Below, piece after piece: positions 5,560 through 10,228 of a stretch of DNA of 54,216 bases. The position numbers and the translations under genes are program-made. Origin of the DNA: an uncultured Atopobiaceae bacterium (GTDB taxonomy: Bacteria > Actinomycetota > Coriobacteriia > Coriobacteriales > Atopobiaceae); assembly GCA_947631545.1 (NCBI GenBank), contig CANRLS010000006.1, positions 1 through 54,216 on the forward strand, read 5' to 3'. Under the pieces are notes generated by a model that made no database searches, was not told the DNA's origin, and worked only from the letters and a program-made list of their open reading frames with translations. Positions within the stretch are counted from its first letter, which is position 1. Each line of letters opens with the position of its first letter.

Positions 5560-5925
5560 CTACCCCTCTTCGTAGACGTTCACGCCCAGAGGGGCGCCTC
5601 CCGCCCCATCCATCACGATCTGCAGCCTGTAGGCGCCGGCTCCGAAGCTCGCGGTGGGAAGTCCCTGCTCCTTTGCCCCCCTCACCTCGGCGTCGAACTC
5701 ATCCGGATCCACCCCCATGGCCTCGAGGAAGTCGTCGAACCCCTCGGTGTCGAACTCGTCGGCGAGGATGGAGATGCTCCCTCCCATGTTCTGGGAGCAC
5801 GGCACGCCGTAGCGGTCGGCGAGCCCCTTGGGGGAGTCGGCGGTCATCGCGTTCGCGATGATGATGACGACCGCGAGCGCGATGCAGAGGATGCCGACCG
5901 TGACCTTGCCTTTGGTGAGCTCCAC
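5560..5925 (-). CDS. Small membrane-anchored protein of unknown function
   Basis: The 121-residue product has one hydrophobic segment at about residues 9-27 and then a mostly acidic extracytoplasmic domain with one Cys (CSQNMGG). No family is recognised. It lies between the hydrogenase genes and the two-component system on the same strand. A strong hairpin separates it from hydA. The 140 bp between it and the response regulator show no further gene. Confidence 0.7.
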   Translation of the reverse strand: MELTKGKVTVGILCIALAVVIIIANAMTADSPKGLADRYGVPCSQNMGGSISILADEFDTEGFDDFLEAMGVDPDEFDAEVRGAKEQGLPTASFGAGAYRLQIVMDGAGGAPLGVNVYEEG

Positions 5926-6082: not shown

Positions 6083-7873
6083 CTAGTAGACGGCCGGCTC
6101 CTCGCGGAAGTCCCCCGGCGCCTCCGCGTAGGCGGGAAGCGGCTCCTCGTTGGGCATCGTCCACGTGCGATGGTCCGTGTGGAGGAGCCTCTCCGCGATC
6201 TCGGAGTTGGGCTCGCCCAGGAACTCGTCGTAGCACTGGATGACCTGGGGGTTCTCGTGCGAGAAGCGCAGCGTCGCGGCCTCGTCGATCGCGTAGAGGG
6301 TGCCGGCGCGATCGGCGGCCAGCTCCTCGTTGTCGTGGATCGGGTTGCCGCCGCCGCCCGTGCAGCCGCCCGGGCAGGCCATGACCTCGACGAAGTCGAG
6401 CTCCTCCTTGCCATCCCTGATGGCCTGGAGGAGCCTCTCGGCGTTCACGAGGCCGTGGGCCACGCCGACGCGGACCTTCGTGCCGCCCATGTCGAAGGTG
6501 CCCACGCGCCAGCCGTCGCGCTCGCGAAGCGCCGCCAGCGCCTCGGGATCGGGGTTCTCGCCCGTGACCACCGAGTAGGCGGTGCGGAGCGCCGCCTCCA
6601 TGACGCCGCCCGTGACGCCGAAGATATGGCCGGCGCCCGACGCCACGCCCATGGGATCGTCGAAGTCGGCCTCGTCCAGGTGCGCCACGTCGAGGTGATG
6701 GGCGCGGATCATGCGGTCGAACTCGCGCACGGTGAGGACGGCGTCCACGTCCGGTCCGCCCTCCTCGCCCCGCATGGACTCGTAGTGGGCCTCCGCCTTC
6801 TTGGCCACGCAGGGCATGATGGAGACGAGGTAGAGCCTCTTGGGATCCACGCCCGCCTTCTGGGCGAAGAAGGTCTTGGCGAGGGCGCCGAAGATCTGCT
6901 GCGGGCTCTTGGTGGTCGAGATCCTATCCACGAAGTCCTGGGCCTTGCCCTTGGCGTAGCGCACCCAGCCGGGGCAGCAGCTCGTGAACATGGGCCACTC
7001 GTAGTCGTCTCGGTGCTGGAGCTTGTGGAGGAGCTCGTAGCCCTCCTCCATGATCGTCACGTCGGCCGAGAAGTCGGTGTCGAAGACGTAATCGAACCCG
7101 AGCGCCTTGGCCGTGGCCACCATGCGGCCGGTCGTGGCGAGCTCGCGGTCGAGCCCGATGCCCTCATGCCAGCTCGTACGCACGGCGGGCGCGATCTGCG
7201 CGAGGACGATGGTGTCGGGGTCGGCGATGGCGGCCTCCACCTCGCCCGTGTCGTCGCGAGCGGTGAGGCAGCCCACCGGGCAGTGGGTGATGCACTGGCC
7301 GCAGAGCGTGCAGTCGCTCTCGGCGACGGAGCGATGCTCGGCCACGTCGACCCGGGCCTCCGGGCCGGTGTTGATGAGGTCCCACACGTGGACGCCCTGC
7401 ATCTTGTCGCAGACGTTCACGCACCGCAGGCAGTTGATGCACTTGTCGTAGGCGCGCTGCAGCGGGAAGGTCGGGTCGTCGGTGATGGGCGAGAGCTCCT
7501 TCTCGTACATCTCCGAGATGAGGCCGAGGTCGTTCGCCGTCCGCTGGAGCTCGCAGTTGCCCGAGCGCACGCAGGTGGGGCAGTTGCAGTTGTGGCGGGC
7601 GAGCATGAGCTCGACGTTGGTCACGCGAGCCCTGTGCGCCTTGGGGCTGTCGGTCCATACCACCATGCCGTCCCAGGCGGTGGTGTTGCAGGCGGCGACC
7701 AGACGGTCCTCGCCCTCGACCTCCACGCAGCACACGCGGCAGGCGCCCACGTCGTTCAGCGGCGGCATGTAGCAGAGCGAGGGGATTCGCACGCCGGCGA
7801 CGCCGGCGGCCTGGAGGACGGTGAGGCCATCCTCCACCTGGACGTTCCGTCCGTCGATCGTGACGTTTACCAT
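6083..7873 (-). CDS. hydA: [FeFe] hydrogenase catalytic subunit, M3 architecture
   Basis: The protein catalyses H2 production or oxidation at an H-cluster. In its 596 residues a [2Fe-2S] domain (Cys34, 45, 48, 62) is followed by a His-Cys3 cluster domain (His94, Cys98, 101, 107), two [4Fe-4S] clusters (Cys145-155 and Cys188-198) and the hydrogenase domain. The three H-cluster signatures are complete: TSCCPGW at 297-303, MPCVAKKAE at 353-361 and VMACPGGCTGGG at 497-508. I chose the ATG at 7873, preceded by GGGAGGG; it overlaps the upstream gene by 7 bp. That gene encodes a flavoprotein partner, so electrons probably come from NAD(P)H, perhaps with ferredoxin. The maturation genes hydE, hydF and hydG are not in the window. 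Confidence 0.95.
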   Translation of the reverse strand: MVNVTIDGRNVQVEDGLTVLQAAGVAGVRIPSLCYMPPLNDVGACRVCCVEVEGEDRLVAACNTTAWDGMVVWTDSPKAHRARVTNVELMLARHNCNCPTCVRSGNCELQRTANDLGLISEMYEKELSPITDDPTFPLQRAYDKCINCLRCVNVCDKMQGVHVWDLINTGPEARVDVAEHRSVAESDCTLCGQCITHCPVGCLTARDDTGEVEAAIADPDTIVLAQIAPAVRTSWHEGIGLDRELATTGRMVATAKALGFDYVFDTDFSADVTIMEEGYELLHKLQHRDDYEWPMFTSCCPGWVRYAKGKAQDFVDRISTTKSPQQIFGALAKTFFAQKAGVDPKRLYLVSIMPCVAKKAEAHYESMRGEEGGPDVDAVLTVREFDRMIRAHHLDVAHLDEADFDDPMGVASGAGHIFGVTGGVMEAALRTAYSVVTGENPDPEALAALRERDGWRVGTFDMGGTKVRVGVAHGLVNAERLLQAIRDGKEELDFVEVMACPGGCTGGGGNPIHDNEELAADRAGTLYAIDEAATLRFSHENPQVIQCYDEFLGEPNSEIAERLLHTDHRTWTMPNEEPLPAYAEAPGDFREEPAVY

Positions 7874-9696
7874 TCTTCGACCCTCCCGCGCCTGAAGATG
7901 CCGTAGCCATAGTGGTCGCAGCGAAGGCAGCGCCCGCATTCCTGCGCCGCCTCCTCGTCCGACATGCAGAGCTCCATGAGCTCGAAATCCCTCTTGCGCT
8001 CCTCCGCGGGCCGCTCCTTGGGCTCCACGCGCCCGCACTGGGCCATGTTCGTGGGCTTGGGGTCGGGGATGCGCACGTCGGTGCCGATGGGGTGGCGGTA
8101 GCCCAGGAACTCGTCGATGTTGGCGGCCGCCACCTTTCCGCCGGCGATGGCCCTGATCACGGTCGCGGGACCGGTCACGCAGTCGCCGCCGGCGAAGACG
8201 TTGCCCGCCACCTCGATGTAGGTGGCCTCGTCGGCCACGATGCGATCGCGGTTGGTGGGATAGCCCGCCCGGGCGAAGGGATCGCTCTCGATGGCCTGGC
8301 CGATCGCGATGAGGGCGATGTCGCAGGGCACGACCTCCTGCGGCGCGTCGGCGTTGCGAGGCGCCGGGCGCCCCCACTTGAAGGGACCGATGACCTGCGG
8401 CTGCACCAGCACGCCGGTGAGCTTCCCATCCTCGCCGACGAAGCCCACGGGGGCCATGAGCTCCATGACCTCGCAGCCCTCCGCCTGGGCACCGGCGATC
8501 TCCTCGGGGAGCGCCGTCATGTCGTCGATGCGGCGGCGATAGACGATGTTCACCTCGCGAGCGCCCAAGCGCACCGCGGTGCGGGCGCAGTCCATGGCGA
8601 CGTTGCCGCCGCCGATGACCGCGACGCTCTTGCCGGTGAAGTCGGGCCGCTTGAGCTCGCCGCAGTCGCGGAGCAGCTCCACGGCGCTGATGACGCCGTC
8701 CAAGTCCTCGCCCTCGGCGCCGAGCGAGCGGTCGAGGTGGGCGCCGATGGAGATGAACACGGCGTCGTAGTCGCTCTGCAGGTCCTCGATCCGCACGTCC
8801 TTGCCCACAGCGACGTCGCATTCGACCTCTACGCCGAGCGACTCGATGACGGCCATCTCGTCATCCAGCACCTTCTGGGGCAGGCGGTAGTCGGGGATGC
8901 CGTAGCGGAGCATGCCGCCGAGCCTCTCGCGCTGCTCGAAGACCTTCACGGTATGGCCCATGAGGGCGAGGTAGTAGGCGCAGGTCATGCCGCCGGGGCC
9001 GCCGCCCACGATGGCGATGCGCTTTCCCGTCGCCTCCGCCTTCTCTGGCGGCGGCACGTGGCCCGCATGGTCGACGGCATAGCGCTTGAGGGTGCGGATG
9101 CCGATGGGCGCGTCGATCGAGCCCCTGCGGCAGCGATCCTCGCAGGGATGCTCGCAGATGTAGGCGCAGACGCTCGGGAACGGGTTGTCCTTGCGAATCT
9201 GCCGCACGGCGTCGTCGGGCCTGCCGTCCTCGATGCAGGCGATGTAGCCGGGGATGTCCACGTGCGCCGGGCAGAGCGCGACGCAGGGGACTGGCAGCTC
9301 CAGATGGGCCAGGCAGCGGTTCTCGTGGACGTGCGAGAGGTAGTCGTCCTTGAAGCCGCGGAGCCCCTCCAAGACCATGCGGGCGGCTTCGGCGCCGATG
9401 GCGCAGTCGCTCGTGATCCGGATGTCCTCCGCGGTCCTCTCGATGAGGTCCACCGTCGCCTCTGTGGCGCGCCCCTCGACGACGTCGTCCAGAAGGCCCT
9501 CGAGCACGTCGAGACCCACATGGCAGGGCACGCACTTTCCGCAGCTCTGCGCCTTGCAGAGCGCGAGGAATGCCCGGGCCATGGAGACGGGGCAAAGCCC
9601 CGGCTGGCTCACGGACACCCTCCGTTCCAAGTCCTCGTAGAGGCTTTGGACGGTTTCGAGCGCCTGATCCTTGGCAGGCAGCACGAGTCTCGCCAT
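7867..9696 (-). CDS. Hydrogenase partner: NuoF-type Fe-S domain fused to a GltD/NfnB-like NAD(P)H oxidoreductase
   Basis: This 609-residue protein is a domain fusion. Residues 1-125 resemble only the C-terminal iron-sulfur part of NuoF/HydB (SCGKCVPCHVG, Cys52, 55, 58 and a later Cys98). The FMN/NADH-binding part of NuoF is absent. Residues about 128-600 are a glutamate-synthase-small-subunit-like flavoprotein: a Cys-rich N-terminal cluster region, an FAD motif at 226-236 (IAIVGGGPGGM), a second dinucleotide motif VIGGGNVAMD at about 360 followed by VYRRR, and an ending with CGRCLRCDHY. The Arg pair after the second fold suggests NADPH. The gene overlaps hydA and likely supplies its electrons. 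The start has GGGGAG upstream. Confidence 0.88.
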   Translation of the reverse strand: MARLVLPAKDQALETVQSLYEDLERRVSVSQPGLCPVSMARAFLALCKAQSCGKCVPCHVGLDVLEGLLDDVVEGRATEATVDLIERTAEDIRITSDCAIGAEAARMVLEGLRGFKDDYLSHVHENRCLAHLELPVPCVALCPAHVDIPGYIACIEDGRPDDAVRQIRKDNPFPSVCAYICEHPCEDRCRRGSIDAPIGIRTLKRYAVDHAGHVPPPEKAEATGKRIAIVGGGPGGMTCAYYLALMGHTVKVFEQRERLGGMLRYGIPDYRLPQKVLDDEMAVIESLGVEVECDVAVGKDVRIEDLQSDYDAVFISIGAHLDRSLGAEGEDLDGVISAVELLRDCGELKRPDFTGKSVAVIGGGNVAMDCARTAVRLGAREVNIVYRRRIDDMTALPEEIAGAQAEGCEVMELMAPVGFVGEDGKLTGVLVQPQVIGPFKWGRPAPRNADAPQEVVPCDIALIAIGQAIESDPFARAGYPTNRDRIVADEATYIEVAGNVFAGGDCVTGPATVIRAIAGGKVAAANIDEFLGYRHPIGTDVRIPDPKPTNMAQCGRVEPKERPAEERKRDFELMELCMSDEEAAQECGRCLRCDHYGYGIFRRGRVEEW

Positions 9697-9823: not shown

Positions 9824-10201
9824 CTATGCGCCCTCCGCCCCTCCTTCGCCCTCGAGGCCGAAGGCGATCCTCGGGGCGTCGCCCCAGAGCCGCTCGAGGC
9901 GGTAGTAGTCGCGGATCTCCTCCTGGAAGATGTGCACGACCACCGTCCCGTAGTCGAGGAGCACCCACTTCAGGCCCTCGCGGCCCTCCACCGAGATCGG
10001 GCGCTCGCCCAGCTCCTCGCGCGCCCGCTCGATGACGCGGTCGATGACGGCATCGGCCTGGCGCGGGTTCGCCGCCGTCGCGATGACGAAGAAGTCCGCG
10101 ACGTCCGAGAGGGACCTCAGGTCGAGCGTGACGATCTCCCGAGCCTTGCGGTCGTCGATGGCCGTCGCGATCGAGCGGGCCAGATCGAGGGGCTCTGCCA
10201 T
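9824..10201 (-). CDS. rsfS: Ribosomal silencing factor RsfS
   Basis: RsfS binds ribosomal protein L14 and blocks subunit joining when nutrients are short. The 125-residue protein has the family core: VTLDLRSLSDVADFFVIATA, GLKWVLLDYG and VVHIF, then DYYRLERLWGDA. I prefer the ATG at 10201, because AAGGA sits 7 nt before it; a GTG two codons upstream is too close to that site. It is the last gene of the obgE-proB-proA-nadD-yqeK series, the common neighbourhood of rsfS. Confidence 0.94.
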   Translation of the reverse strand: MAEPLDLARSIATAIDDRKAREIVTLDLRSLSDVADFFVIATAANPRQADAVIDRVIERAREELGERPISVEGREGLKWVLLDYGTVVVHIFQEEIRDYYRLERLWGDAPRIAFGLEGEGGAEGA

Positions 10202-10228
10202 ATCCACGTCCTTCCGGGCCCTAGGGGC

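Follow-up and report, generated by a model that had tools for sequence, protein, structure and literature searches.

In the HydDB classification, group A2 comprises the GltD-linked (glutamate-synthase-linked) [FeFe] hydrogenases, whose role is undetermined (PMC5037454). These enzymes are described as functionally unresolved in the rumen, those of Sharpea, Olsenella and Oribacterium being up in low-methane sheep (PMC6776011), and they still need characterisation in the human gut (PMC12578642). Dimeric NAD(P)H-dependent uptake hydrogenases form one of the classes given by Carere et al., who also adopt the D(M3)-type class of Calusinska et al. 2010, to which Cthe_3003/Cthe_3004 of Clostridium thermocellum belong (PMC3561251). 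Cthe_3004 was proposed to form an NADPH dimer with the adjacent Cthe_3003, and enzyme assays in this species gave an NADPH-dependent hydrogenase activity 5-10 fold above that with ferredoxin or NADH (PMC3492117). Here we describe a gene pair of this kind, a HydA catalytic subunit and a flavoprotein partner, in a 54,216-nucleotide stretch (hereafter the window) from an uncultured Atopobiaceae bacterium (contig CANRLS010000006.1). The original prediction placed the pair at 6083-9696, exactly where it is found, but overstated the novelty of the two-gene arrangement, which is already on record both in HydDB group A2 and in the dimeric class of Cthe_3003/Cthe_3004. The pair belongs to a known but biochemically uncharacterised hydrogenase type. 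It is probably a two-subunit, soluble, non-bifurcating GltD-linked enzyme (HydDB A2) in which NADP(H) is coupled to H2/H+; the larger stake is the maturation of its active site, and the interest of the pair comes mainly from that puzzle.

Domain content of the pair

The partner gene is transcribed first and its open reading frame (ORF) overlaps that of HydA through the sequence ATGGTAA. A Pfam scan of the partner found PF10589, Fer4_20 and Pyr_redox_2 and no match to PF01512, the flavin mononucleotide (FMN) domain of NuoF, which bears out the earlier description of a protein that keeps only the C-terminal Fe-S domain of NuoF together with a full GltD/NfnB-type module. It scores above the PRK12771 subfamily cut-off of NCBIfam (578.9 bits versus 516). 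In HydA, the same scan recovered Fer2_4, NADH-G_4Fe-4S_3, two 4Fe-4S sites, the H-cluster domain and the small-subunit domain. HydA passes the group A cut-off (TIGR02512, 446.8 bits versus 405.95) and carries the H-cluster motifs TSCCPGW, MPCVAKKAE and ACPGGCTGGGGNP. By analogy with complex I and HydABC, its N-terminal NuoG-like part is expected to be the docking surface for the NuoF-type domain.

The conservation of partner residues was scored over 72 homologues. The four ligands of the NuoF-type cluster (C52, C55, C58 and C98) are invariant, as are eight more cysteines that make up two ligand sets (C138/C142/C590/C593 and C177/C181/C185/C189) and the YRRR motif (residues 386-389) at the NAD(P) site. 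Judging from the alignments, the GltD-type cluster domain is circularly permuted, since residues 554-594 align with the very start of NfnL; the C-terminus would thus provide the missing RCLxC ligands, as it does in proteins of the StnC type. The partner matches NfnL with an E-value of about 1e-77. Its AlphaFold model (predicted local distance difference test, pLDDT, 86) finds its best fold matches among the StnC-type GltD domains, with Z-scores of 45-46 over residues 134-605, while the match to NfnL (Z 36-37) reaches residue 533 only. StnC is the closest solved homologue of the partner. Three further homologues of the GltD module, 32-43% identical over parts and devoid of the PF10589 domain, are encoded on contigs 56, 83 and 87 of the same genome (L112-L114).

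Conservation of the pair

The genome that contains the window is 98% complete. Whole-genome profile searches found no match to PF01512 or to PF01257 (NuoE/HydC), and PF10589 was found in this partner protein only, which leaves no sign of a hidden HydB or HydC elsewhere. The FMN domain, whose loss from the partner the original prediction proposed, is absent from the entire genome, and the separate hydB and hydC that formed part of the condition for refuting that prediction are both missing.

A scan of the genome collection gave 594 confirmed relatives, the best 80 of which were kept. HydA directly follows the partner in all 80 of these loci and in the 20 of 20 relatives with loci given, and the domain order is likewise conserved in both sets, so the pair is not a chance association. 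The two-gene module is present in Bacillota, Synergistota and Actinomycetota. No conserved third operon gene was found over the 80 loci; the larger extra clusters look like antisense or out-of-frame shadows of the pair.

The partner also occurs in another context. At three loci (L104:3733-8449, L105 and L107), its homologues lie next to a formate dehydrogenase-type alpha/molybdopterin subunit instead of HydA, and in three relatives from the order the homologue beside the molybdopterin protein is about 51% identical. The whole molybdopterin subunit was scanned in two genomes (G037 and G044) and has the same NuoG-like N-terminus as HydA; that of G037 passes the formate dehydrogenase alpha cut-off (TIGR01591), and the scanned partner homologue of this genome contains PF10589, Fer4_20 and Pyr_redox_2. 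Judging by these contexts, the partner appears to serve as an exchangeable NAD(P)H module, which would dock on NuoG-like catalytic subunits.

Absence of the H-cluster maturases

Two HydA genes, both intact, are present in the genome: that of the A2 pair and one for a group B monomeric [FeFe] hydrogenase on contig 76 (L111:724-2418; TIGR04105, 599 bits, over the cut-off) with the motifs TSCCPAW, GPCSAKK and MACPGGC. The original prediction missed that HydE, HydF and HydG are absent from this genome: the genome profile search gave no match to TIGR03955 (HydG), no match to TIGR03956 (HydE) at E 1e-40 and only weak GTPase matches below the TIGR03918 cut-off (HydF). None of the three was found in the pair-carrying genus siblings tested either. 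Among 72 pair-carrying genomes, 18 have all three maturases, 7 have HydE and HydF without HydG, and 45 lack all three; the remaining 2 are odd. The 45 include the isolates Oscillibacter ruminantium GH1, O. valericigenes An860 and Oscillibacter sp. ER4 and MSJ-31, as well as a one-contig genome (G022), and several of the maturase-less genomes carry three to five HydA genes. A failure of the search is an unlikely explanation, as the matches to the three proteins are strongly bimodal and were found in the window's own order (G018 and G039). A single origin of the maturase-less state was also rejected: the state is scattered, and the well-supported branches of a quick tree force at least 11 changes. 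Near neighbours differ in maturase state (for instance G107 and G078), although some of them are metagenome-assembled genomes that may have gaps.

Without these genes, hydrogenase activity cannot be taken for granted. One explanation is that HydA is no longer a hydrogenase in this lineage, its H-cluster being reduced to the [4Fe-4S] part, and that the pair is an NADPH-dependent oxidoreductase of another substrate such as ferredoxin. The lack of maturases in the genome, in its tested siblings and in so many other carriers of the pair speaks in its favour. Nevertheless, no lost catalytic residues were found in the maturase-less HydAs: the motifs of the [2Fe] site (APxVR, both cysteines of TSCC, SP, MPC and its lysine, FG, and L3) are intact in the 44 of 44 readable sequences that reach the H domain. 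The active-site motifs are equally conserved in all maturase classes, and all H-cluster cysteines and nearly all electron-chain cysteines of HydA are invariant where readable. These motifs even survive the stem of 0.9 changes per site that leads to the window's genus, along which relaxed constraint would be expected. The loss of hydrogenase function thus seems a minority scenario, with a small but appreciable chance of being correct.

A nitrogenase-like and Hyp cassette in HydG-less genomes

The genomes that have HydE and HydF without HydG suggest another solution. In six of eight such genomes nitrogenase-like genes lie alongside, and five of these (Eubacterium pyruvativorans, G011, G016, G017 and G026) also have HypF-HypC-HypD-HypE; within the stretch read for G069 (L164), the Nif-like genes stand without the Hyp genes, and G013 and G088 are the exceptions that lack nitrogenase-like genes. 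The cassette consists of HydE, HydF, TM1266, one or two sets of NifH/D/K-like genes and HypF-C-D-E. In E. pyruvativorans, the order is pair-HydE-HydF-TM1266-NifH-D-K-HypF-C-D-E, all on one strand. The HydE, HydF, HypF, HypD and HypE of this species pass equivalog cut-offs and its HypC passes a subfamily cut-off; its Nif-like proteins fall below the NifH, NifD and NifE cut-offs. Neither HypA nor HypB was seen by eye in the gene calls around the cassettes, no profile having been run for either. By comparison, Hyp and Nif genes are absent beside HydE/F from all 20 HydG-positive genomes within the stretches read, some of which are short (Fisher p about 7e-5, without correction for relatedness). 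No earlier report of nitrogenase-like genes with HydE and HydF was found in the open-licence literature searched.

The job of HydG is to make the Fe-CO-CN unit, and HypF-C-D-E are the Fe-CN-CO machinery of [NiFe] hydrogenases. The cassette may replace HydG. Tentatively, and with somewhat less than even confidence, we propose that A2 hydrogenases can dispense with HydG for the assembly of their H-cluster, and that those of the window's lineage can dispense with all three of HydE, HydF and HydG: in the relatives, HypF-C-D-E and the nitrogenase-like NifH/D/K beside HydE/HydF would do the job of HydG, and the lineages devoid of maturases would use a further route, possibly the import of a precursor. 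HypC/D/E/F, NifH/D/K and HydG were not found in the 1.14 of 1.74 Mb sampled of the window's genome, which partly excludes alternative maturation genes. Nothing convincing of the Hyp or Nif type was found near the HydAs of maturase-less genomes in 20 stretches, a weak 26% HypE-like match being the only candidate.

An SsuA/NMT1-like ABC importer (lipoprotein, permease and ATPase) is encoded next to or near the A2 HydA at eleven loci (L176, L181, L108, L178, L174, L030, L034, L042, L013, L049 and L106). The window's genome has an ABC importer on contig 1 (L259:15247-17709), with the permease and the ATPase fused. None was seen in the 18 loci, with flanks of differing length, that come from genomes carrying all three maturases. 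The importer was rejected as a strict replacement of the maturases, as it also lies beside the A2 hydA in two genomes that have HydE and HydF.

Proposed reaction and alternatives

If the pair is the NADP(H)-linked hydrogenase that we favour, NADPH would reduce the flavin adenine dinucleotide (FAD) of the GltD module, from which electrons would pass to two [4Fe-4S] clusters in the permuted Fer4_20 domain, to the NuoF-type [4Fe-4S] cluster and, through the NuoG-like [2Fe-2S]/[4Fe-4S] chain of HydA, to the H-cluster. Electrons could flow either way, as set by the H2 pressure. The C-terminal domain of NuoF would have been retained as a docking adaptor for NuoG-like subunits, and the FMN/NADH input of HydB would have been swapped for an NADPH input. 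We infer the cofactors, the electron path, the NADP preference and the lack of bifurcation alike; for the preference for NADP(H), the sequence basis is the conserved YRRR motif. Several points weigh against this interpretation. HydDB suggests NAD rather than NADP for group A2 (PMC5037454), and according to Carere et al. sequence could not settle the specificity for the cofactor (PMC3561251). The literature searched yielded no purified A2 pair for which a reaction had been measured, and with HydE, HydF and HydG absent, the [2Fe] subcluster may be lacking from the enzyme in this genome.

The original prediction saw a simpler, NADPH-linked and possibly electron-bifurcating hydrogenase. The simplicity and the probable link to NADP(H) are borne out, as there is no separate hydB or hydC, whereas bifurcation is not. 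In a bifurcating or confurcating enzyme, the GltD-type FAD would act like that of NfnB in NfnAB and divide electrons between ferredoxin and H2/NADPH. R271 of the partner, equivalent by alignment to R201 of NfnB, appears conserved, both GltD cluster ligand sets appear complete and HydA has ferredoxin-like clusters, all of which would be compatible with this activity. Yet the defining feature of the Bfu/HydABC family is its invariant BfuBC core, made of the FMN subunit BfuB with its extra clusters and of BfuC/HydC (PMC9304861), and the genome has neither the BfuB/HydB FMN module nor HydC. No NfnA-like subunit is present in the pair or among its conserved neighbours. The equivalent arginine, which matters in NfnB, is also kept in StnC, the FAD of which is a non-bifurcating NADPH flavin (PMC10482914), and HydABC has been proposed as the minimal bifurcating Hyd set, monomeric and dimeric enzymes being classed as non-bifurcating (PMC6085437). 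Because the BfuBC/HydBC core is absent and the flavin of the closest solved relative does not bifurcate, bifurcation by the pair is unlikely, and we give it only a slight probability. The role that HydDB proposes for A2, H2 uptake feeding NAD(P)H to glutamate synthase, is the least probable of all: the HydDB table and the GltD-type homology of the partner point to it, but no widely conserved neighbour of any kind lies beside the pair in 80 loci, and GltD homology reports only a flavoprotein fold common to Nfn, Stn, DPD and others.

Features and neighbourhood

Just downstream of HydA lies a small ORF, and upstream of the pair an RsfS-like gene that adjoins a housekeeping run resembling obg-proB-proA-nadD-yqeK (Table 1).

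Table 1 Coordinates of the gene pair, its domains and neighbours in the window, and loci of the HydG-less cassette
Feature	Position	Strand	Description
HydA	6083-7873	minus	596 amino acids; group A M3-type [FeFe] hydrogenase catalytic subunit
HydA N-terminal NuoG-like part	7520-7873	minus	Fer2_4 and NADH-G_4Fe-4S_3
HydA H-cluster domain PF02906	6350-7210	minus	motifs L1, L2 and L3 intact
HydA iron hydrogenase small-subunit domain PF02256	6167-6325	minus	residues 517-569 (Pfam)
Partner flavoprotein	7867-9696	minus	609 amino acids; NuoF C-terminal domain and GltD/NfnB-type module; first gene of the pair
Partner PF10589 NuoF-type [4Fe-4S] domain	9331-9582	minus	residues 39-122, E 1e-22 (Pfam)
Partner GltD/NfnB-type module	8104-9321	minus	Fer4_20 with FAD and NAD(P)H Rossmann domains, residues 126-531
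Partner C-terminal segment	7915-8037	minus	residues 554-594, RCLRCD; aligns to the NfnL N-terminus
Downstream ORF	5560-5925	minus	121 amino acids; small, membrane- or lipoprotein-like (by eye)
RsfS-like ribosome silencing factor	9824-10207	minus	upstream of the pair (by eye)
Cassette loci	L158:4813-18000 and L207 (Eubacterium pyruvativorans); L157/L208, L159/L209, L160/L211, L161/L210		

Significance

The anatomy of the pair leads directly to a reaction that can be tested, NADPH:H2 without ferredoxin. Should the HydA genes that are intact in complete genomes really work without HydE/F/G, either there is a second pathway to the H-cluster or the hydrogenase gene counts of gut and rumen surveys overstate hydrogen metabolism. 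Either outcome would change the reading of gut and rumen metagenomes. One of 13 group-B-encoding gut isolates made no high H2 (PMC12578642); as the paper does not name it, we draw no conclusion from this case.

Comparison with known systems

Among the closest counterparts are the HydDB A2 enzymes, which have the same group A catalytic subunit and an adjacent GltD-type protein without the NuoF FMN domain. Nevertheless, the A2 rule looks downstream of HydA for a partner without any NuoF domain, whereas here the partner is upstream and the C-terminal Fe-S domain of NuoF is present. Cthe_3003/Cthe_3004 are likewise a HydA beside a protein that the published description likens to a GltD-like NADPH-binding protein, and both subunits are highly expressed (PMC3492117). 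C. thermocellum also has bifurcating trimeric sets, which the window's genome lacks, and hydrogenase active-site assembly genes that have been studied (PMC4355364), such genes being absent here.

Other systems share parts of the pair. In the StnABC/Nfn-Bfu transhydrogenases (8OH5, 9BOV, 9N5U), the permuted GltD-type FAD/NADPH module recurs in StnC, where it is likewise connected to clusters of the NuoG type; unlike the pair, Stn retains a complete bifurcating StnAB that resembles HydB/HydC, and it lacks an H-cluster. Among the HydABC enzymes of group A3 (8A6T, 7Q4V, 7P5H), HydA1 of 8A6T is the closest to our HydA by sequence, and HydB shares the NuoF C-terminal domain with the partner, but the FMN/NADH domain, HydC and the extra HydB clusters are missing from the pair, which has the GltD module instead. 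The NfnB-type GltD module is common to NfnAB and the pair; the NfnA-type NAD(H) flavoprotein is missing, the gene adjacent to the partner being HydA in 100 of 100 loci. Finally, the NAD(P)H formate dehydrogenase pairs of G037 and G044 have a homologous partner, but their catalytic subunit is a molybdopterin FdhA in place of HydA.

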